From the IMG/VR virus record IMGVR_UViG_3300025070_000292, positions 1 through 20,971 of that record: 20,971 nt of DNA; one strand, 5' to 3'. Shown here in pieces: positions 1 through 12,811 of the stretch. Each line of letters opens with the position of its first letter. The stretch's first letter is position 1. The position numbers and the translations under genes are program-made. The DNA comes from a virus. The notes beneath the pieces are model-generated. The model did not search any database. It was not told the DNA's origin and was given only the letters and a program-made list of their open reading frames with translations.

Positions 1-644
1 TTGAATTCTTGATAATATAAGTCAGGCGTGCAGACCATGATAACTCCTTGCTCGATCTTACTGCCGTAGACGTAGTCGTGGGCCATTGCGTACATGGCAA
101 TTTGTAAATAATAATCTTCGATCCATTCTTCTTTCTTCGGACGATTAGCTTGTTTGAAGTCAACAATAGTTTCTTTGCCATTATGAAGGCATACCAAATC
201 TGTTGAGCCCGCGTACAAACCCGGGTAGTGTAGCATGACTTCAGAGCCATACCATTCTTCCACTGGCGCAAGACCAATCTCAATAATTTTGTCGGCCATG
301 GGACGCGCCTCTTGTCCGATGCTTGTAAGATCCACACACCCAGTTCCGAGGATATAGTGCTCCAAGAATTTGTGCATACATGTCCCCCTATTACTAGAAT
401 GGTTTTTGATTCGTTCTGCGTTTTCTGTTCCAACTTTAGCCTGCCATTTCTTTAAAAAATCTTTGTTTGCGGTGGCACCTAATATAGTAGTCACACTCGG
501 AAGTCTATAATTATCTATGTCATAAACCCTGGTCCCTGATCCGGGGTCCGTGAGCTGTTTACCACGTATATAGTTGTATTTATTACTCTTTTTTATCTTT
601 CGACCAATGTTATGGTATTCTAAAATGTCCGTATCATCCATCAT
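1..644 (-). CDS. PD-(D/E)XK exonuclease (Cas4/RecB-like), 3' end cut by window edge
   Basis: Reading leftward from ATG at 644 gives 214 codons with no stop before the window edge, so the C-terminus is missing. The protein shows the RecB/Cas4-like nuclease pattern in order: an RGT-x-MH motif with H91, a G-S-T-D motif with D149, D162-F-K164 as the (D/E)xK pair, and Q181-x3-Y185 (the QxxxY motif of this family). Such phage nucleases process DNA ends in replication, recombination or host DNA breakdown; which applies here is not visible. The start lies in an ATGA overlap with the upstream 55-residue gene, so translation is probably coupled. A second ATG at 641 would shorten it by one residue. The gene carries a tandem heptamer repeat at 531-551. 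Family assignment is firm; exact role is inferred. Confidence 0.85.
   Translation of the reverse strand, partial: MMDDTDILEYHNIGRKIKKSNKYNYIRGKQLTDPGSGTRVYDIDNYRLPSVTTILGATANKDFLKKWQAKVGTENAERIKNHSSNRGTCMHKFLEHYILGTGCVDLTSIGQEARPMADKIIEIGLAPVEEWYGSEVMLHYPGLYAGSTDLVCLHNGKETIVDFKQANRPKKEEWIEDYYLQIAMYAMAHDYVYGSKIEQGVIMVCTPDLYYQEF
531..551 (+). repeat. Tandem heptamer, three degenerate units
   Basis: GGTCCCT, GATCCGG and GGTCCGT stand in direct tandem inside the left exonuclease gene. The second and third units closely match the first two units at 5290-5303 in the polymerase gene. A lone GTTCCGA lies nearby at about 344. Confidence 0.5.
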
Positions 645-808: not shown

Positions 809-987
809 AGCTTTCTTTTTAACTCCTCTAAGTATTGTGCGTTTTCTTGATTACTTAATAATTGTTCACGTTCAATGTTTTGTTTATCTCTAAGTATCTT
901 AACATGTTTACGCCAGGCCCATGCATTAAGCTGACCTGCATACTTCATTATAAAATGTAAACCATTGTATATATATTTATCAAACAT
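805..987 (-). CDS. Small hypothetical protein (60 aa)
   Basis: The reading frame opens at 1008, but the internal ATG at 987 is the likely start, because AAAGGA lies just upstream of it. With that start the overlap with the upstream nuclease gene falls from 29 to 8 bases. The product begins MFDKYIYNGLHFIMKYAGQL and ends in a charged helix (QENAQYLEELKRKL), suggesting a small helical protein with an amphipathic N-terminal part. It overlaps the next gene by four bases. Function unknown. Confidence 0.65.
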   Translation of the reverse strand: MFDKYIYNGLHFIMKYAGQLNAWAWRKHVKILRDKQNIEREQLLSNQENAQYLEELKRKL

Positions 988-1345
988 TTTTCCTTTCAAA
1001 GGGTACAACGTTAGTCATATCCGTTTTCTTAACTTGTTTATCTCGTTTACTTGGCATCACATCTAACACTTCTTTAGTATCTAGATCTACAAAAATTAAT
1101 TGTACATCAAGTTCCTTTTGTTTTTTAGTCTGTGCTCTATTAACCTTGTAACCGTTTTTAGTTCGTAAACTTATAGCTTTTACATCAATCAATATAACGT
1201 CTCCCATGCCATCCTCATCAATCAACACTAGATCAACTGGACCATGTTGTGACATATTACGGTGTACAGAATATCCTAAATTAATAAAATATTCAGCAGC
1301 AATCAGTTCAGCACGATCGCCTTTTATATGTTTACTGTGAGCCAT
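980..1345 (-). CDS. PD-(D/E)XK endonuclease, Holliday-junction-resolvase-like
   Basis: This 121-residue protein has the compact nuclease core typical of archaeal-type Hjc resolvases and related PD-(D/E)XK endonucleases: a helix with E13 (and E18) after KGDRAE, D38 in GPVDLVLID, and D54-V-K56 in ILIDVKA. The length matches the family. A GGTGG stretch 5 to 9 bases before the ATG could serve as ribosome-binding site. In a replication setting such an enzyme would resolve branched DNA, but a restriction or homing-type role cannot be excluded. The 47-base gap upstream holds a 10-bp palindrome. Nuclease fold assignment is good; substrate is inferred. Confidence 0.75.
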   Translation of the reverse strand: MAHSKHIKGDRAELIAAEYFINLGYSVHRNMSQHGPVDLVLIDEDGMGDVILIDVKAISLRTKNGYKVNRAQTKKQKELDVQLIFVDLDTKEVLDVMPSKRDKQVKKTDMTNVVPFERKNV

Positions 1346-4551: not shown

Positions 4552-6402
4552 TCATTTAATTTGGCCCCAATTAGGGCCAGATTCGTAATCTACTTTGTTT
4601 GGTACTTCCAAGTCAACAGCAGATTCCATAATATTTTTTATTTTTTCTGCATGTTCAGGACTCTCAACAGATATATCAAGTTCATCATGTACTTGTATAT
4701 GCGGTATGATACCTTCTTTGTACAACTCAATCATTGCTTTCTTTGTCATGTCAGCTGCTGATCCTTGTATCAATTTGTTTAGTGCTTTATAAGTGTAGGC
4801 ACGTTTAATCCCTGGTCCGTGTTCCAAGAGCGCTGCGTCATGTGGCAGTGCTTTATGTATACCAAACTGATTAGGTTCCCATAAATGAAACCTACATAGT
4901 CTTCCAAGTAATGTACGAATTCTTCCTGAGTCTTGTGCTCTGCTCATTACATTATCCATTAATTGTTTAACAAATGGTACACGGTTATGATACTGTCTAA
5001 ACAAACTATCCGCTTTGTCTTTACTAACACCTAACTCTGCTTGTAATTTATTCTTACCCATACCATAGAACAGGCCAAGATTTATGGTCTTAGCCTGTGA
5101 TCTAGGTATCTCTGCCATATCAGCAACGATCGTATGAAAATCTGCGTCCCCCTCATGGTACGCATCCAATACATCGCCCACTCCATAGAGATTCTGTAAA
5201 GCTGCATAATGCACTACCAACCTAGGCTCTTGCTGAGAATAGTCAAAACAACCCCATGTATGGCCCTTCTCGGGCACAAATAACGCCCTAATCCGGGGTC
5301 CGAGGTCCTTGTTCCTAGCTGGAATTTGCTGTAAATTTGGGTTTGAATAACTGAATCTGCCTGTCACAGTTCCGCCATTATCTGATCTAAGTTGGTTAAT
5401 ATCTGCATGAATTCTACCCTTGTGAGAATACTTAATTATGGTATCAATGAAAGTGGTATGGGCCTTGTTTATTTCACGGGCCTGGGCGATTCGTTTCACC
5501 AGCGGGTGGGGGTGATTCTGTAAAAAGTTTTTAGTAAAGGAAGGTGCAGATGTTTTTTCAGTTCTATCATAGTCTAGTTTCAATTTATCGAACACTTGTG
5601 CGATCGATCGTGCAGCCCATATTTGAGTATCTATGCCTGTTTCTTTTTTTACTTCTTGGATTAACTTGGCTTCTTGTTGCGCTAGCTCTTGCTTCATTGT
5701 ATGAGCTTTTTGAACGTCCACTCGAACCCCACGAAATTTCATGGCCACTAGACAAGGAAAAAGTTCCGTCTCGAGATCAAAAATAGATTGTATATCTTGG
5801 TGAAGTATTTCTTTTTTAAGTTCTTGCCATAACTCTAAAGTTATCTCTGCATCTTTTTCTGCGTATGCACCTACATAAATGGCAGGTAGTTTATACATTT
5901 CTGCCTTGGCGTCAACACCCCAATCTTTAGCTGCAGCATATAAATCGCTTTCACTTTTTGTCTTGCCGGTGTATCTTTTAGCACAGTTGTTTAAGTCATA
6001 GCGCATTTGATTTTCATCAACAAGGGCCGATGCAATCATCGTGTCCACAATTTTACCGCTGACACTTAAACCGAGCGCTTGTATCCAACACACGTCATAC
6101 ATGGCGTTGTGAAATATTTTATCTGCAGGTGTATCTAATATACCTTGAAACCATTTTAAAACTTTTTTACGATCCATATTACCACCACCTTCGTGTGCGA
6201 TTGGATAATAACCTGACCATCCTGTTACAGCCACAGCAATTCCTGTAACATCTCCTTTACCAACTACAGATCCTGACCCCATTTTCATTAGGTCTGGGTC
6301 TTTAGTTTCTAAGTCAATTGCAATCTCATCATACTTAGATAAGTCTGGAAAATTTTCTGGTGGTAGCCACTCAGTTTGTGGTTTAAATAGAGGTATCTGC
6401 AT
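4552..6402 (-). CDS. polA: DNA polymerase I family (family A) with 3'-5' exonuclease domain
   Basis: The frame opens at a TTG at 6417, but ATG at 6402 has AAAGGG at ideal spacing and is chosen (616 aa). The exonuclease domain has D30-x-E32 (DLE), N99-x3-D103 (NAMYD) and Y180-x3-D184 (YAEKD). The polymerase domain has TGRFSYSNPNLQQIPARN, motif A with D387 and steric gate E392 (DYSQQEPR), motif B with R434, K438 and Y446, and motif C H572-D573-E574. There is no 5'-nuclease domain, as expected for phage replicases. The residue matching E. coli F762 is L442, a marker discussed in marine viral polymerase work. It lies downstream of the primase and helicase, which fits a replisome operon. It carries tandem heptamers at 4814 and 5290. 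Confidence 0.97.
   Translation of the reverse strand: MQIPLFKPQTEWLPPENFPDLSKYDEIAIDLETKDPDLMKMGSGSVVGKGDVTGIAVAVTGWSGYYPIAHEGGGNMDRKKVLKWFQGILDTPADKIFHNAMYDVCWIQALGLSVSGKIVDTMIASALVDENQMRYDLNNCAKRYTGKTKSESDLYAAAKDWGVDAKAEMYKLPAIYVGAYAEKDAEITLELWQELKKEILHQDIQSIFDLETELFPCLVAMKFRGVRVDVQKAHTMKQELAQQEAKLIQEVKKETGIDTQIWAARSIAQVFDKLKLDYDRTEKTSAPSFTKNFLQNHPHPLVKRIAQAREINKAHTTFIDTIIKYSHKGRIHADINQLRSDNGGTVTGRFSYSNPNLQQIPARNKDLGPRIRALFVPEKGHTWGCFDYSQQEPRLVVHYAALQNLYGVGDVLDAYHEGDADFHTIVADMAEIPRSQAKTINLGLFYGMGKNKLQAELGVSKDKADSLFRQYHNRVPFVKQLMDNVMSRAQDSGRIRTLLGRLCRFHLWEPNQFGIHKALPHDAALLEHGPGIKRAYTYKALNKLIQGSAADMTKKAMIELYKEGIIPHIQVHDELDISVESPEHAEKIKNIMESAVDLEVPNKVDYESGPNWGQIK
4814..4827 (+). repeat. Tandem heptamer, GGTCCGT plus variant
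   Basis: GGTCCGT followed directly by GTTCCAA inside the polymerase gene. Same strand orientation as all other copies. Confidence 0.4.
5290..5317 (+). repeat. Tandem heptamer, four degenerate units
   Basis: Four consecutive heptamers: AATCCGG, GGTCCGA, GGTCCTT and GTTCCTA, in phase. It falls in the codons for the conserved NKDLGPRIR segment of the polymerase, so protein constraint explains part of it. The GC-rich codon choices (CTC, CCC, CGG) are unusual for this AT-rich genome. Confidence 0.5.
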
Positions 6403-6604
6403 CGTAATCCCTTTCAATAATCATTTCTAAAAAGTGTATTGCTTTCAATATGTCTTGTTTCTTTCCTTTGTCACGGTGTCTTATAATATATTTTATAGCA
6501 CAGCCTTCAGGATAGAGCAACTCATTCTCTATTACAAACTTGCTAGGTTGAATTTTATATTTTTGGTAGTGAGATCCCCCGATCTGCTTGTCGTATGGTT
6601 TCAT
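6383..6604 (-). CDS. DUF3310 family protein (73 aa)
   Basis: The sequence matches the DUF3310 pattern: G-G-S-H-Y near residue 9, then an I-Q-P-x-FVIEN segment, CAIKYIIRHRDKGKKQDILKA and a HFLEMIIERD helix. The family is common in phages and resembles helical MazG-type nucleotide hydrolase folds, but no activity is established. Here it lies between helicase and polymerase, overlapping the helicase stop by four bases (ATGA) and the polymerase start by 20, so it is probably made with the replisome. Confidence 0.85.
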   Translation of the reverse strand: MKPYDKQIGGSHYQKYKIQPSKFVIENELLYPEGCAIKYIIRHRDKGKKQDILKAIHFLEMIIERDYDADTSI

Positions 6605-8091
6605 AGTATGTATCCCTTCTCATATTTTCTTGGTTCTATTATATGTAAATTTTCTTTTGTTCTAGTTGCACCAACATAAAACAATCTGTTTTCATCGTCT
6701 GGATCTCTTTCATAACCTTTCATAGTGTTTTGTGTTAAGTCTGTTAACAACACAACATTTTCTGCTTCACCACCTTTAGCTCCATGTATTGTAGATAGTT
6801 CTATTCGTGGCTTCTCATTTAGTTTTTCTCCGTTTGCTCTCATCTTTCTTAAATAGTCAACTTTAGTTTGTCCGGCGTCATCAAACGCTTCATACCAAAC
6901 TGTTTTAACTTGTAGGCCGTAATCTTTTACTAATTGATCTATGCTATAAAAAGATTCTTTTGCCATACCTTTTATTTTTTTCTTATGCCAATGTGTAGGT
7001 CCCATGTATTTAGATATACTTTCTATTTGTTTAAAGTTTACTAACTGTCCTTGTCTTAATTGTTCCCACGCTGTAGCTGCTTCGTGTAAATCTTTTTCTG
7101 TACCTCTTCTGTATCTAGATGTGTAGTAGAGTCCACGTTGATACAAAGACTCTTCTATATCTTTTAATAAATATTTAGTTCTAGCTAACACTAACCATTC
7201 ACCTGATGACATATCAATTGTATCTGTACTGTAATGTCTATGTAAACTTCCTTGATTTATTTTTGGTTGCCATGTTTTATCTATTCTATTTTTAATTCTA
7301 TTTATTATACCCATTGCAATACCGTGTACTTTAGCAGGTATTCTATATGATTGTGTTAGTGGTAAGTATTGTCCTTTTAATGCTATAAAAGAATCTACGT
7401 CTGCACCAGCCCATTTGTATATAGCTTGATCATCATCACCAGCTATAAAAGAATCTGTTGTTTTATTCCAAATAGTTTTAGCCATATCCCATTGCATAAG
7501 AGATAGATCTTGTGCTTCATCAATAAACACTACATCAAACTTTGGTGACTTGTCAGACTTTGTAAACTCTGTAATCATGTCATTAAAATCTATTAAATTA
7601 TATTCTTTCTTGTATCTTATTAATTCGTTTGCAATAATTCTAAGCGTGCTTCTCTCCAGGTCTTGTGTGTGTTCTTGTAAATCAAACTGTTGTTCTGGTG
7701 TAAGATTTCTAAGTTGTGCTAGCTGTATAATTCTTAAATACTCACTGTCAGAAGTAAACGCACTGCCCTGATCTTCTTGATAGTCTGCATATGTTACAGC
7801 AAAACCTAGTTTCTTTCCTAGATCTCTGTAATGTCTTTGCTGCATTACCTGATCTTTTTTAATTCCTAGTCTTCTGAATGCTAGAGAATGTAGTGTTCTA
7901 AAATATGGTAGGTCATCTTCTGTGAGATTAAATTTTTTAATTGCTCTGTCTCTTGCTTCGTACGCAGCTTTTTGTGTAAATGCAAAGTACCCAACTTTAT
8001 CAGGATCTGTTTGTTTTAAATAGTCATCTACTTTGTTTAATAGTGTTGTAGTCTTACCTGTGCCTGGTGGTCCTAATACTATTGTTCTCAT
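6601..8091 (-). CDS. UvrD/Rep-like superfamily 1 DNA helicase (496 aa)
   Basis: All main SF1A motifs are visible: Walker A GPPGTGKT (residues 7-14), motif Ia FAFTQKAAYEAR, DEAQD (191-195), motif III GDDDQAIYKWAG (218-229), LTQSYR (motif IV), STIHGAKGGEAENVV (motif V, from 433) and FYVGATR (motif VI, to 477). At 496 residues it is shorter than cellular UvrD or Rep (about 670-720), and it begins directly with Walker A, so the usual N-terminal Q motif is missing. It should unwind DNA for the phage replisome. The start shares one base with the primase stop (TAATG). Confidence 0.95.
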   Translation of the reverse strand: MRTIVLGPPGTGKTTTLLNKVDDYLKQTDPDKVGYFAFTQKAAYEARDRAIKKFNLTEDDLPYFRTLHSLAFRRLGIKKDQVMQQRHYRDLGKKLGFAVTYADYQEDQGSAFTSDSEYLRIIQLAQLRNLTPEQQFDLQEHTQDLERSTLRIIANELIRYKKEYNLIDFNDMITEFTKSDKSPKFDVVFIDEAQDLSLMQWDMAKTIWNKTTDSFIAGDDDQAIYKWAGADVDSFIALKGQYLPLTQSYRIPAKVHGIAMGIINRIKNRIDKTWQPKINQGSLHRHYSTDTIDMSSGEWLVLARTKYLLKDIEESLYQRGLYYTSRYRRGTEKDLHEAATAWEQLRQGQLVNFKQIESISKYMGPTHWHKKKIKGMAKESFYSIDQLVKDYGLQVKTVWYEAFDDAGQTKVDYLRKMRANGEKLNEKPRIELSTIHGAKGGEAENVVLLTDLTQNTMKGYERDPDDENRLFYVGATRTKENLHIIEPRKYEKGYIL

Positions 8092-9578
8092 TAGTATGGT
8101 GCCTCTTCTTTTAATACTTTTTGTGTGTACTCATCTGTTTTTTTATCAAACTGTTTAACAACGAACACAGATATTCTTTCTTTACCAATACGTTTGTCAT
8201 CACAGTTACATGTTTCTTTTAACATCTGTGCTGTTCTAGAATATTGTACGTCCCAACGTTTTCTAATTAAAAACTGATTGTAAAATTTATCAAATATAAA
8301 ATGGTGGTAGCCATCTTTAGTTAACACACCACCACGTTTTAAATCTTTTATGTCAGACCCTATGTGTCTGTCTAAACAAAACTCTTCTAAATGATTTTGT
8401 AATTGATCTTGTGTAGTCACACCTTCTGGTGGATCTATTGGTTCGTGGTTCTTCATCAATGGATTTATTATCATGTCCCAATCTTTTGGTTTTACTGTTG
8501 GTGGTTTAAAATCTAATTGTTCCATACATGCTTCCTGGAATAAACTTTGTTGTTTTAAAAATTTTACATTTTCTAAGTGTAGTCGTTCACCATCTACGTT
8601 TAGATAGTAGTATGGTTTTTCTAATTTAATTTTTTGTAAATCTGTTAGTGCAGGAAATACTATCTCTTCACCAATACCAAACTTTCTTTCTCTACATAGT
8701 TTTTTATCACACAAATTACACATAGGTGTATCATTACATTTATATCCCCATTCTTTTTTGTCATGTTGTCTCTTAATTATTTCTACTTCAGACTCACTAA
8801 GTGGTACAGTCGATGCTGTTGCATTAAACAAAGTCATTTTACTTTTCCATTCTGCTGGCCATTTCTTTTTAGCATACACACCAAAATGAAACATAGAATT
8901 GTTACGACCACCTTCTGGTATTTTATTCATAGCCATAAGTTCTATGCATGGTGGTGCATCAGAATATTCTGATTGTGGTCTTTCTATTTTTATTTTTGTA
9001 ATGTCTGTCTGTTTGACTGTATTATATATTGTATAAAATTCTTCTAATGTTGCAGCTTCTCCATCTTCTTTAAATGCATAACGTGTTGTTTCATTACCAT
9101 TAAAGTATGGTAGGTTTAAAAAATTACCTGTGTCATCTGCTGATTTTAATTGTATTTGTTTTGGAAAGACTTCTGATCCGCCGTATCCTAGTAGTGTTTT
9201 AATTTCTGTTAGCTTATCTCTCATTCTTTCTGCAGCTACCGGTTGCTCGGAGAAGAGAAAGACGTGTGCTCCTCCGCTCTTTGACCTACACACAGCCAAA
9301 GGCAGTTTAAATTGTTTTATCTTATCTATTAATTTTTTGTGATCAAACCCTGCGTATGAATCTATATCTACACATCCCCACACACATTGATTGTCTTCGT
9401 TAATTGGTATAATACCAAGACTCTGTGTACCATTTAAATGCATGGTCCACAGTTCCGTGGTCACTGGTTGACGTACTACGAACGATTGGCCTTTTAATTT
9501 GACACCATTCTCAGCTGGCGTACTTACTTTAGTACAACCATGCGCGCGCTCCAATCCTTTAAATATTTTTTCAAACAT
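8091..9578 (-). CDS. Archaeo-eukaryotic-type primase (TOTE-like prim-pol), 495 aa
   Basis: Residues about 45-200 show the AEP catalytic pattern: D71-x-D73 in CVDIDSY, SGGAH with H105, and EVFPKQ (136-141) followed by GNFLNLPYFNG, a combination typical of TOTE-system primases. Further on, GGRNN (223-227) resembles a PriCT-type helical region, and C281, C287, C290 and C295 form a probable metal-binding cluster before RKFGIG. The C-terminal 200 residues are unassigned. It should make primers for the family A polymerase. No Shine-Dalgarno sequence precedes the ATG; a hairpin at 9588-9617 lies there instead. A TOPRIM/DnaG-type primase is ruled out by the motifs. Confidence 0.85.
   Translation of the reverse strand: MFEKIFKGLERAHGCTKVSTPAENGVKLKGQSFVVRQPVTTELWTMHLNGTQSLGIIPINEDNQCVWGCVDIDSYAGFDHKKLIDKIKQFKLPLAVCRSKSGGAHVFLFSEQPVAAERMRDKLTEIKTLLGYGGSEVFPKQIQLKSADDTGNFLNLPYFNGNETTRYAFKEDGEAATLEEFYTIYNTVKQTDITKIKIERPQSEYSDAPPCIELMAMNKIPEGGRNNSMFHFGVYAKKKWPAEWKSKMTLFNATASTVPLSESEVEIIKRQHDKKEWGYKCNDTPMCNLCDKKLCRERKFGIGEEIVFPALTDLQKIKLEKPYYYLNVDGERLHLENVKFLKQQSLFQEACMEQLDFKPPTVKPKDWDMIINPLMKNHEPIDPPEGVTTQDQLQNHLEEFCLDRHIGSDIKDLKRGGVLTKDGYHHFIFDKFYNQFLIRKRWDVQYSRTAQMLKETCNCDDKRIGKERISVFVVKQFDKKTDEYTQKVLKEEAPY
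9452..9465 (+). repeat. Tandem heptamer, GTTCCGT plus variant
   Basis: GTTCCGT followed by GGTCACT inside the primase gene, with a related GGTCCAC one base out of phase just before (9444-9450). Same orientation as the other copies. Confidence 0.4.
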
Positions 9579-9631: not shown

Positions 9632-10381
9632 TTAGTACGGTGATGCTTCTTTAGTATCTTCTGATCCGTGTTTAACCTGCACTTCATCTTTGCCGACACT
9701 TTGAGCAAAAGCTTTTGCCATTTCGTAGACACCTTTGTCTTCGACTGGTCCTGCTTTTTCTACTTCCCATCCAAACCATGTTCCTTTGTCATTAGACATC
9801 TGAACAGTAGATAGATTATAAATGTGGCTGTATGTTGGCGGTGTAAACAAACCATTTTTACCTTGTAGCTTGATACCCATCATCAATGAGTTCCATTTTC
9901 TACTAACTTTAAGTTGAGTAGATTTCATAGAAATCAAAGCTGTTGATGGACTCTTACCAAGAGTCAATACAAAATGACTTGCAGTGTTATCAAGATAATT
10001 ACCATTTGGTAATCTGTCTTTGTAGTCTTTACCTCTTGTGGTTTGACTAACGATATCACTATCTGCACTGTGAATTGCAACAGGTGCACCACTGCTGGTA
10101 CCTCTGTCTTGCCATTCTATATATTGTCTTTTGTAATGACAAGGTACAACACTAATTTTATCAAACAATTCGTTTGTGACAGTGTTGATTATTTTGCCGG
10201 GCTCTGCGCCATCGACATATTTACCATCTCTTTTGTTTACTTCTGGAGATAGTTGTCCCAAAATTTTTAGGAAAGGTAAGGCAAGATCTTCTTGCGCTAT
10301 ATTCTGAGCACCTTGGTTTGCATCAGCTTCAAACATATTGACTGCTAATGCTCCTTGTTTTTTCTCTGTTACTTGGTTCAT
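9632..10381 (-). CDS. Putative single-stranded DNA-binding protein (249 aa)
   Basis: The protein starts MNQVTEKKQGALAVNMFEAD and contains ALPFLKILGQLSPEVNKRDG, then a segment rich in aromatic residues (YKRQYIEWQDRG) and a C-terminal acidic stretch (GSEDTKEASPY). Proteins of this kind in phage replication operons are often annotated as gp2.5-like ssDNA-binding proteins; the OB fold cannot be proved by eye. A clear ribosome-binding site (AAGGAAC) precedes the start. Position directly before the primase supports a DNA-coating role. An alternative is a recombination mediator. Confidence 0.6.
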   Translation of the reverse strand: MNQVTEKKQGALAVNMFEADANQGAQNIAQEDLALPFLKILGQLSPEVNKRDGKYVDGAEPGKIINTVTNELFDKISVVPCHYKRQYIEWQDRGTSSGAPVAIHSADSDIVSQTTRGKDYKDRLPNGNYLDNTASHFVLTLGKSPSTALISMKSTQLKVSRKWNSLMMGIKLQGKNGLFTPPTYSHIYNLSTVQMSNDKGTWFGWEVEKAGPVEDKGVYEMAKAFAQSVGKDEVQVKHGSEDTKEASPY

Positions 10382-10383
10382 TT

Positions 10384-10938
10384 TTATTTGTTCCTTTTTA
10401 TTGTTGTCTTATTTCCAACGAACACGTTGAAAATTTCCGTTGGCATTGTTTTACCTGCCTCTAAACGCTCACGGACTAGCGCTTTAAGAGTCATGGGTTC
10501 AACCTTCAACTTTTGTGTTGGTTGAAACCCACGTTCCTCTGCAAGAGCAGCATAATCAGCTGCCTTGTTATCCTCGTTACGACCGAATGATACGGATATC
10601 TCATTTTTGATTATATCACCCAAGCCATTTTCACGAAGCCAGTTAAATGCTTTCTCTCTGTTTGCTACAGAAATATTTGCACTATAATTTGGTTTAACAT
10701 CTACCGAAGAACCATCTGCTAGTTTGAGATGTGATAATCCCATTTCTGCCATCATGGTAGGAATTACTTCTCCTGATAATCGGTCATGTTCTTTTTTTAA
10801 ATCTTTCAGATTGTTTTCACTTGTTTCTATTCTATTATTTAAACCTTCTAACATTTGTATTTGATCTGCTAGAGATTGTATACTTGCTGTTTTATCAACA
10901 AGGTCTTGTTGGTCTTTTTCAAAATCAATACTACTCAT
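10384..10938 (-). CDS. Conserved phage protein with N-terminal coiled coil (184 aa)
   Basis: Residues about 5-60 form a charged helix with coiled-coil spacing (IQSLADQIQMLEGLNNRIE). A compact domain follows with the motifs LKLADGSSVDVKPNYSANIS, FNWLRENGLGDIIKNEI and MTLKALVRERLEAG. I recall these motifs in marine phage replication operons, always as unknown protein. It overlaps the preceding gene by eight bases and ends two bases before the ssDNA-binding gene. It may be a partner of that protein; this is inference from position. Confidence 0.75.
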   Translation of the reverse strand: MSSIDFEKDQQDLVDKTASIQSLADQIQMLEGLNNRIETSENNLKDLKKEHDRLSGEVIPTMMAEMGLSHLKLADGSSVDVKPNYSANISVANREKAFNWLRENGLGDIIKNEISVSFGRNEDNKAADYAALAEERGFQPTQKLKVEPMTLKALVRERLEAGKTMPTEIFNVFVGNKTTIKRNK

Positions 10939-11326
10939 CTATTTTTCCTTTCTCGTATAAATCTATTTCAATGGAATAATATTTTCTTTCTTGTTTATCC
11001 CACTTCAATAAGTTGTATTTGCCATTTGTTATATCAGAAACTATAGAACAAGCTACACCTATAATTGCAGGATCACCTGTCAATAATAAATAATCTTTTT
11101 TTCTATAGTTAGCTAATGCTTTTCTAAGTTTAAAAATAAGTGGACCAGGTGAAAAAATTATTTGTGAAAGTTCTGGTAATAAAAATTTAAACTTTCCATA
11201 ATTTGCTGCACCCATAATATTAATTTTAGGACGACCTTCTGCAGTTCCTGGAATTTCTTGAATTACATAAACTGCTGGTGCATCTTCATTTTTAATATCT
11301 TCATATCTAATTATTTTTTCTTTCAT
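10931..11326 (-). CDS. Conserved phage protein, first gene of the replication operon (131 aa)
   Basis: A TTG-opened frame extends to 11335, but that start lies inside the -10 region, so the ATG at 11326 is chosen. The protein contains PAVYVIQEIPGTAEGRPKIN, GKFKFLLPELSQIIFSPGP and DYLLLTGDPAIIGVACSIVS, motifs I recall from marine phages with no function attached. The pattern suggests an alpha/beta fold; no catalytic residues stand out. The ATG follows the -10 box by seven bases, so the transcript appears leaderless. Confidence 0.75.
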   Translation of the reverse strand: MKEKIIRYEDIKNEDAPAVYVIQEIPGTAEGRPKINIMGAANYGKFKFLLPELSQIIFSPGPLIFKLRKALANYRKKDYLLLTGDPAIIGVACSIVSDITNGKYNLLKWDKQERKYYSIEIDLYEKGKIDE

Positions 11327-11328
11327 GC

Positions 11329-11357
11329 TTGACAATATAGGTCCGAGTTGTTATCTT
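11329..11357 (+). promoter_or_regulatory. Rightward promoter of the SNF2 helicase
   Basis: TTGACA (11329-11334), 17 bases, TATCTT (11352-11357). Start expected near 11364, leaving a leader of about 17 bases with a weak GAAAGAAG ribosome-binding stretch before the ATG at 11381. It is superimposed on the leftward promoter. Confidence 0.7.
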
Positions 11358-11362
11358 GTCAA
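11334..11362 (-). promoter_or_regulatory. Leftward promoter of the replication operon
   Basis: On the minus strand TTGACA (11357-11362), 17 bases, TATATT (11334-11339). Start expected at about 11327, next to the ATG at 11326, so the mRNA is probably leaderless. Each -10 box shares one base with the opposite promoter's -35 box. Confidence 0.75.
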
Positions 11363-11380: not shown

Positions 11381-12811
11381 ATGAATTATAGATTTAAAAC
11401 AAAACCATATGCACATCAAATGACTGCTTTAGAAAAGTCATGGAACCGAGAAACTTTTGCTTATTTTATGGAAATGGGTACAGGTAAAACAAAAGTATTA
11501 ATAGACAATTTAGCTATGCTTTATGACAAAGGCAAAGTTAATGGTGCCTTAATTATAGCACCAAAAGGTGTTGTAGGAACTTGGCATAATAATGAGTTAC
11601 CAACACATCTACCCAACCACATAGAAAATATAACTGTATTGTGGAAAGCAGCTATTACAAAAAAACAAAAAGAATCTTTAGATGAATTATTTTCTGAGGG
11701 TGAGGGACTACATATTTTAATTATGAATGTTGAAGCTTTTAGTACAACTAAAGGTGTAGACTTTGCAAATAAATTTCTATCCTGTCATAGAACTATGATG
11801 GCTATTGATGAATCTACTACAATTAAAACACCTACAGCTAAAAGAACTAAAAATATTCTTAAACTTGCAGAGTCCGCTATCTATAGAAGAATAATGACAG
11901 GTTCTCCTGTAACTAAAAATCCGTTAGATTTATATACACAGTGTGATTTTTTAAGTCCGTGGTTATTAGATTTTACATCTTATTATGCGTTTAGAAATAG
12001 ATATGCAGAAATGAAAACATTACACATGCACGGTAGACAAGTGCAAGTAGTCAATGGTTTTAAAAACTTAGGTGAACTGTCTGATAAACTTAAAGGGTTT
12101 TCTTATCGTGTATTAAAAGAAGATTGTTTAGACTTACCTGATAAAATATTTATTAAACGTGAAATACAATTAACACCAGATCAGCGTAAACTATACGATC
12201 AAATGAAAAAAGAAGCTATTGCAATACTAAAAGGTAAACAATCTACTACTGTAAATACGTTGACACAGCTTATGAGACTACAACAAATAACGTGTGGTCA
12301 TTTTACTGCTGACGATGGTGCAACTCAACCGATTCCTAATAATAGAATTACAGAACTTATGGATGTTCTTGAAGAAACAGAAGGTAAAGCAATTATTTGG
12401 GCTCATTATCAGTATGACATTACTGCTATTATACAAGCAGTATCTAAAAAATATGGTCCGAGGTCCATTGTTGATTATTATGGATTAACACCACAAGAAG
12501 AAAGACAACCCAATATTAAGCGTTTTCAGGATGACCCTGAGTGTCGGTTTATTGTTGGAACGCCTTCTACGGGCGGCTATGGGATAACTTTAACAGCTGC
12601 AAACACTGTAATTTACTATTCTAACGGATATGACTTAGAAAAGCGATTACAATCAGAAGACAGAGCACACAGAATCGGCCAAAAAAAATCGGTAACTTAT
12701 GTCGATTTAATGGCGGACGATACAGTGGATGAAAAAATCGTGAAAGCTCTACGCAAAAAAATAAATATAGCATCAGAAGTTTTAGGAGAAGAATTGAGGT
12801 CATGGATTTAA
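11381..12811 (+). CDS. SNF2-family helicase/ATPase (superfamily 2), 476 aa
   Basis: The frame opens at a TTG at 11348, upstream of the predicted transcript start, so the ATG at 11381 is chosen. Motifs of the two RecA-like domains are clear: Walker A GTGKT (33-37), DEST (143-146) in place of the usual DEAH, TGSP (173-176), AIIWAHYQ, the GTPSTGGYGITLTAAN motif V and EDRAHRIGQ ending at about residue 434. This is a minimal SNF2 ATPase with no added domain. Phage SNF2 proteins may remodel protein-DNA complexes or replication forks. It is the only large rightward gene and meets the endolysin gene tail to tail. It carries a tandem heptamer at 12455. Confidence 0.93.
   Translation: MNYRFKTKPYAHQMTALEKSWNRETFAYFMEMGTGKTKVLIDNLAMLYDKGKVNGALIIAPKGVVGTWHNNELPTHLPNHIENITVLWKAAITKKQKESLDELFSEGEGLHILIMNVEAFSTTKGVDFANKFLSCHRTMMAIDESTTIKTPTAKRTKNILKLAESAIYRRIMTGSPVTKNPLDLYTQCDFLSPWLLDFTSYYAFRNRYAEMKTLHMHGRQVQVVNGFKNLGELSDKLKGFSYRVLKEDCLDLPDKIFIKREIQLTPDQRKLYDQMKKEAIAILKGKQSTTVNTLTQLMRLQQITCGHFTADDGATQPIPNNRITELMDVLEETEGKAIIWAHYQYDITAIIQAVSKKYGPRSIVDYYGLTPQEERQPNIKRFQDDPECRFIVGTPSTGGYGITLTAANTVIYYSNGYDLEKRLQSEDRAHRIGQKKSVTYVDLMADDTVDEKIVKALRKKINIASEVLGEELRSWI
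12455..12468 (+). repeat. Tandem heptamer, GGTCCGA plus variant
   Basis: GGTCCGA followed directly by GGTCCAT, inside the only rightward gene that carries the repeat. Because it keeps the + orientation while the gene direction is reversed, the repeat is not explained by codon use. Confidence 0.45.

Follow-up and report, generated by a model that had tools for sequence, protein, structure and literature searches.

Family A DNA polymerases (PolA) of the Leu762 Group II type are known from the Chesapeake virome. According to the parts of the 2018 report considered here, a UvrD gene neighbours 68% of them, always together with SNF2, and the combination of Leu762 PolA, UvrD and SNF2 ranks second in abundance, with 16.4% of the reads that fall on PolA contigs (PMC6302109). 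For the HTVC023P-type pelagiphage group, a primase, PolA and a helicase are given as core markers in the consulted part of PMC9599517. Here we describe a viral DNA stretch of 20,971 bases (IMG/VR record IMGVR_UViG_3300025070_000292, positions 1 to 20,971; referred to as the window), in which a primase of the archaeo-eukaryotic primase (AEP) superfamily overlaps a short UvrD-like helicase of superfamily 1 (SF1). The window is a fragment, and the remainder of the source phage genome lies outside the data. Judged by sequence, its replication block is a member of the known HTVC023P / Leu762 Group II block of marine phages. What is new here is that the primase and the UvrD-like helicase co-occur in 24 of 25 phage records and that their divergence is correlated beyond that of PolA. 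Further new points are the predicted OB-type fold of the gp34-like protein, which makes it a candidate single-strand binding protein, and the predicted palindromic promoter common to SNF2 and the operon. An AEP-UvrD pairing was not found in the published literature searched, whose coverage leaves most subscription journals outside.

With the Leu762 Group II replisomes the window has in common a Leu762-type PolA and UvrD-like and SNF2-like helicases; in the consulted parts of PMC6302109 the primase is discussed as DnaG, and the AEP nature of a window-type primase is unmentioned. An earlier note on this DNA had called the families of its primase and helicase unusual for a polA-type phage replisome. 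This does not hold, as the same parts of PMC6302109 report UvrD and SNF2 as neighbours of Leu762 Group II PolA. In HTVC023P, HTVC027P and 023Pt_psg01, the same genes stand in the same order as in the window (SNF2 - gp32 - gp33 - gp34 - primase - UvrD - PolA, with SNF2 divergent), which is the order of the HTVC023P-type / Leu762 Group II block; SNF2 sits at the far end of these three records. The window primase shares 38% identity with that of 023Pt_psg01, 34% with HTVC023P and 27% with HTVC027P, and forms a separate branch. The PurZ-bearing phages PMBT28 and vB_AbaS-Bhz9 have homologous primase, SNF2, gp33/gp34-like, UvrD and PolA genes, but in another order (primase, SNF2, ..., UvrD, PolA) and with a distant PolA of 28-29% identity. 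In the PolA of the window, the 762-equivalent position is a leucine (residue 447, in KTINLGLFYGM), the position being assigned by its match to the E. coli motif.

The two genes in question are as follows.

8091..9578, minus strand: AEP-superfamily primase of 495 residues (PF22548, 59.3 bits; PHROG 21866, 2.9e-98)
6601..8091, minus strand: short SF1 UvrD-like helicase of 496 residues (PF00580, 1.3e-35; PF13361, 1.9e-13; PHROG 1967, 3.8e-91)

Both are real open reading frames on the minus strand, separate and overlapping, as the earlier note had stated; the primase stop and the helicase start share one base and read 'taatg'. The primase matches PF22548, the AEP-TOTE model of Pfam, at 5.5e-16 (cut-off 27 bits), and the PHROG 21866 match, labelled 'primase', spans nearly all of it. 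In an alignment of 44 of the 47 non-redundant primases (alignment A3, in which the window replaces the identical L004 and L106, L114 and L195 are omitted; alignment A4 keeps all 32 of its rows, again with the window replacing L004), A3, D71, D73, S101, G103, H105, E136, P139, K140, Q141 and N155 are invariant in 44/44 rows. The EVFPKQ-type motif noticed earlier is thus conserved, PKQ being invariant, and 'EIFPKQ...GN' can be aligned as well with the solved domain of the CRISPR-associated primase-polymerase (CAPP). The architecture comprises an AEP domain (about residues 1-198), a helical middle (about 210-300) with the conserved cysteines C281, C290 and C295 (present in 44, 42 and 43 of the 44 rows) and a winged-helix-like end (about 385-480). 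In the predicted model (pLDDT 88.1, pTM 0.75), residues 1-198 superpose on the CAPP PrimPol with Z 19.9 and a root-mean-square deviation (rmsd) of 3.3 over 184 residues at 21% identity. Among solved structures, the primase profile finds only the Marinitoga CAPP (E about 2e-13), the sole other listed row being at 0.18. The winged-helix matches of the C-terminus are weak, with Z 7.6 at 16.9 Å rmsd and Z 6.5 over 90 residues at 2.9 Å, a level that is possibly common. Profile and alignment evidence identifies the product of the gene at 8091-9578 as an archaeo-eukaryotic primase.

The gene at 6601-8091 is, by its domains and motifs, an SF1 UvrD-like helicase. It contains the N- and C-terminal UvrD helicase domains (PF00580, PF13361) together with SF1 motifs at residues 7-14, 191-195, 218-222, 247-250, 433-440 and 474-477. 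Its PADLOC matches (RTasHel, GajB, near 1e-28) are weaker than its phage-family match. The UvrD-like proteins of the window and of nine relatives start almost at the nucleotide-binding loop, at residue 7 in the window (the alignment used, A2, omits the split UvrD of L088). The usual N-terminal element of such helicases is the Q motif, and it seems to be absent in most of these proteins.

The primase is present in 25 phage records (KY606587 and NC_041921, which are one phage, are counted among them), and 24 of these are exactly the 24 top-scoring records for the window UvrD (at least 119 bits; the next scores 104). The exception, MW202803, has a 326-residue AEP protein without the C-terminal half, plus a DnaB-like gene. 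Viral contigs show the same association. The 157 viral loci with the primase come from two scans, each limited to its top 80 loci, with three loci in both, and are hence near relatives; UvrD lies next to the primase in all 147 contigs with at least 600 bases downstream, the gp34-like gene precedes it in 110/110 with room upstream, and PolA is present in 65/65 with at least 3,200 bases. In bacterial assemblies, UvrD is present at 26 of the 30 loci where the primase is full-length and there is room, and at none of 14 with the AEP part only. As for the four misses, the contig ends 690 bases past the primase at L110 and after a gp33-like gene of the PMBT28-type order at L119; the other two, L115 and L122, are taken up below.

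The two proteins also tend to diverge together. Over 63 related loci in which all four genes are covered by more than 60%, the pairwise distances of primase and UvrD correlate at 0.90, and at 0.71 when PolA is held constant, a value reached by none of 300 permutations. Given PolA, the same loci yield 0.35 for gp34 with primase and 0.16 for gp34 with UvrD. At L116 and L120, the primase is 29-32% and UvrD 40-41% identical to that of the window, with PolA at 71-72%, gp34 at 67-71% and SNF2 at 65%.

We notice the primase-UvrD pair also in phages carrying adenylosuccinate synthetase (PurZ-type) genes (L089 and L090, that is PMBT28 and vB_AbaS-Bhz9) and in phages with 7-deazaguanine genes (L086 and L087, that is Pan1 and R5C). 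Both gene types are base-modification sets. No PolA of the window's family was found in the examined stretches of Pan1 and R5C.

No DnaB-type ring helicase was found with the pair in the window or in its complete relatives, in agreement with the earlier note. DnaB_C (PF03796) has no match in the window, and neither it nor phrog_19 reveals a DnaB-type helicase in any of the 10 complete phage records with a full-length primase; Toprim_2 and the DnaG zinc-ribbon primase are likewise absent from these 10 records. The DnaB-bearing positive control, MW202803, was detected by both DnaB_C and phrog_19, its DnaB_C match of 24 bits lying below the cut-off. PF13481 matched 7 of 11 records below its cut-off, in five cases at the UvrD gene; it missed the DnaB-bearing control and so was uninformative. 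As the genome of the source phage is incomplete, we infer its lack of DnaB from the complete relatives. One candidate was discounted: the phrog_19 matches of 12-13 bits in the window (13 bits) and in one relative fall on the nucleotide-binding loop of UvrD.

Nearly all genes of the window are on the minus strand. From 11335 downstream, the order on that strand is gp32-like, gp33-like, gp34-like, primase, UvrD-like helicase, DUF3310-like and PolA, and SNF2 is divergent from this operon, oriented on the plus strand from 11381. The features around the pair are as follows.

9632..10381, minus strand: Pam3 gp34-like protein with a predicted OB-type fold (PF23977, 1.9e-74)
10384..10938, minus strand: Pam3 gp33-like protein, member of the ordered block (PF23984, 7.9e-36)
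10931..11335, minus strand: Pam3 gp32-like protein, at the head of the replication operon (PF23992, 3.3e-30)
11329..11362, no single strand: palindromic divergent promoter predicted from sequence, two overlapping sigma-70-type sites on opposite strands
11381..12811, plus strand: SNF2-type SF2 helicase (PF00176, 5.2e-22; PHROG 62, 2.2e-128)
6383..6604, minus strand: DUF3310-like small protein between helicase and polymerase (PF11753, 4.2e-05 and 23.9 bits, barely missing the cut-off of 24)
4552..6417, minus strand: family A DNA polymerase with a 3'-5' exonuclease domain (PF00476, 5.6e-69; PF01612, 1.5e-13)
3..644, minus strand: PD-(D/E)XK exonuclease of a phage family (PHROG 298 exonuclease, 2.8e-48)
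980..1345, minus strand: small PD-(D/E)XK-like protein (PF11645, 5.7e-05, below the cut-off; PHROG 5018, 5.5e-11)

The gp34-like protein is a candidate single-strand binding protein (SSB) on the basis of weak OB-fold matches. Its model has a pLDDT of 82.4, and the best VIA-align rows are the BRCA2 OB domain (Z 6.5) and the RB69 gp32 SSB (Z 6.2 over 154 residues). All VIA-align rows have Z below 8, and many of the OB-fold proteins resembled bind single-strand DNA. No sequence relative of known structure was found for it, and Foldseek returned nothing under E 0.001.

From these observations, we consider it fairly probable that the UvrD-like protein serves this phage as a fork helicase of its own, with the AEP primase as its working partner. 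By analogy with UvrD, the helicase would travel on the leading-strand template in the 3' to 5' direction, and the gp34-like protein would coat the exposed single strand. The primase, as the partner of the helicase, would lay the primers through its AEP domain, and PolA would extend both strands. The C-terminal half of the primase is retained in every case where UvrD is retained, and would be the part that likely contacts the helicase or the template. The herpesvirus UL5/UL52 proteins are a helicase-primase pair in which an SF1 helicase works with an AEP primase. The proposed pair would work like such pairs and unlike T7 gp4, a likeness for which the basis here is co-occurrence and correlated divergence. 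More tentatively, and at rather less than even odds in our judgement, there may be an abundant marine phage lineage without a ring helicase. Its fork would be run by an SF1 helicase of 3'-5' polarity that is physically attached to an AEP primase, together with a family A polymerase and a gp34 OB-fold SSB, and the pair would be exchanged between phages as a unit. If true, this ring-free phage fork would in its logic resemble archaeal, eukaryotic and herpesvirus forks more than those of T7 or T4.

Several observations weigh against a UvrD-driven fork. L115 and L122 have a full-length primase with room and without a nearby UvrD, beside integrases; they are possibly satellites or integrated elements that have retained only the primase of the phage set and rely on a borrowed helicase. 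HTVC027P has one gene between primase and helicase, and the PMBT28-type phages have SNF2 and others between primase and UvrD. At L172, L174, L175, L176, L178 and L183, UvrD is only 42-45% identical to that of the window, with the primase at 61-63%, gp34 at 83-86% and PolA at 71-77%; here the helicase alone has apparently been replaced, so the coupling is not strict. The loci are related, so the distance correlations overstate independence. Phages can also borrow the host DnaB, and the OB and winged-helix matches behind the suggested roles of gp34 and the primase are weak. In cells, UvrD is a poorly processive repair helicase, according to the consulted parts of PMC6302109. In a rival account, then, the primase primes, the UvrD-like protein acts with SNF2 in recombination-dependent replication, repair or fork restart, and the host DnaB opens the main fork. 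It fits the main roles of UvrD and SNF2 helicases, recombination and repair, which are also suggested for the SNF2 and UvrD/Dda-type helicases of jumbo phages in the available part of PMC7824862, and it accommodates the lone primases of L115 and L122. We nevertheless regard it as rather unlikely, because primase and UvrD are adjacent in every viral contig with room (147/147) and diverge in a correlated manner, and because a DnaB-like gene appears in the sole record, MW202803, whose primase is without the C-terminal half.

The earlier note had proposed that the set may reflect exchange with TOTE conflict systems (TPR, OB, TBP, Effector, as given in the part of PMC12458937 considered). Such a recent exchange appears to us very unlikely. 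It is suggested by the common Pfam model, by common EVFPKQ and GN(F)LNLP-type motifs and by the presence of SNF2 and nuclease genes in the window. That the primase is TOTE-like stands insofar as its AEP domain exceeds the PF22548 cut-off, but the relation is distant, 59 bits against about 340 for the core TOTE-type proteins. PF22548 matches occur in 17 of the 398 genomes searched in one phylum and in 55 of the 297 in another, the strongest at 300-356 bits, and in the two strongest-class proteins scanned (L266, L267), the AEP domain is fused to a ResIII helicase. A second set (e.g. L271, 142 bits) consists of TPR-AEP proteins beside Cas1 and Cas6, that is CAPP. The model also matches AEP proteins fused to AAA_25 or DUF5906; since it covers AEPs fused to other helicases, it is not diagnostic of TOTE. 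The 495-residue primase contains no helicase domain, SF2 (ResIII) or other, and none of the 20 window proteins scanned matches a TPR or TBP Pfam model at the limits used. In the AEP-region tree (92 rows, a quick search without bootstrap, with several long branches; L273, L275 and L277, divergent or partial, and L106 and L111, cut by contig ends, are the 5 of 97 rows omitted), 14 TOTE-type rows lie on one side of a branch with SH-aLRT 98, far from the window's all-phage clade. Two CAPP rows stand apart, and the window falls in a clade of 21 rows (98) within one of 42 rows (93), all of them UvrD-linked. AEP-wide trees are described as unreliable in section 7 of Kazlauskas et al. (PMC5862659, consulted in part). 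The SNF2 and the larger nuclease are closest to phage families: SNF2 matches PHROG 62 at 2.2e-128 against 2e-44 for the best defence model (PADLOC ZorD) and has homologs in 2,298 phage records, and the nuclease at 3-644 belongs to the PHROG 298 exonucleases. The SNF2-type SF2 helicase and the two PD-(D/E)XK-like genes are indeed in the window, as the earlier note said, and a match to the AEP-TOTE model should not be taken as a defence system.

With the Marinitoga CAPP (PDB 7nqd, 7nqe, 7nqf and 7p9j), the window primase has in common the AEP fold and the EIFPKQ / GN motifs, that is a Prim-Pol fold with DxD (D71, D73), sxH (H105) and an acidic third motif, for which E136 would be the residue according to the alignment. 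DNA priming is described in the consulted part of PMC8211822 for CAPP enzymes of this AEP type, with their DxD residues being essential. Unlike the Marinitoga protein, the window primase has no TPR and no Cas1/Cas6 neighbour, differs in its C-terminal half and lies on a separate branch. No operon with Cas1/Cas2 was found; phage replication genes flank the primase on both sides.

According to the parts of PMC5862659 considered here, nearly all double-stranded DNA viruses with a primase are said to encode a replicative helicase too. For phages of this type, either the UvrD-type protein counts as the replicative helicase, or that of the host is used. With its tight primase-UvrD partnership, the set is a good test of how a virus replicates that has no ring helicase of its own. 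HTVC023P and HTVC027P are isolates that grow on SAR11, and phages infecting Acinetobacter, Salmonella and Dinoroseobacter carry homologous sets, which makes the question of the fork helicase testable in the laboratory.

We also notice some minor features of the loci. In the bacterial assemblies, an integrase adjoins the full-length primase at L115 (7294-11515) and L122 (8688-11764). The window protein at 3898-4545 matches PHROG 3704, labelled 'ferredoxin', at 6.3e-74 and has no Pfam match; in HTVC027P and 023Pt_psg01, the gene that holds the same place after PolA carries the label phosphoribosylaminoimidazole synthetase. At least one of the two labels is doubtful.

The predicted promoter between SNF2 and the operon consists of TTGACA-17-TATCTT on the plus strand and TTGACA-17-TATATT on the minus strand, both near the sigma-70 consensus and almost fully overlapping. 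Promoter-like sites in the surrounding 1,000 bases are not above chance (2 found, 5.4 expected), so the case for this promoter comes from its placement and conservation. Both sites reach at least 10/12 in 40 of 64 related loci, compared with 0.9% of shuffles, figures that derive from related sequences and simple base shuffles. The listed start of the gp32-like gene is TTG, with an in-frame ATG at 11326. Because the minus-strand -10 box ends 8 bases before this ATG, the minus-strand transcript may be almost leaderless. The overlapping sites would admit one polymerase at a time, and so the start region is probably shared by the SNF2 gene and the replication operon, or contested between them.

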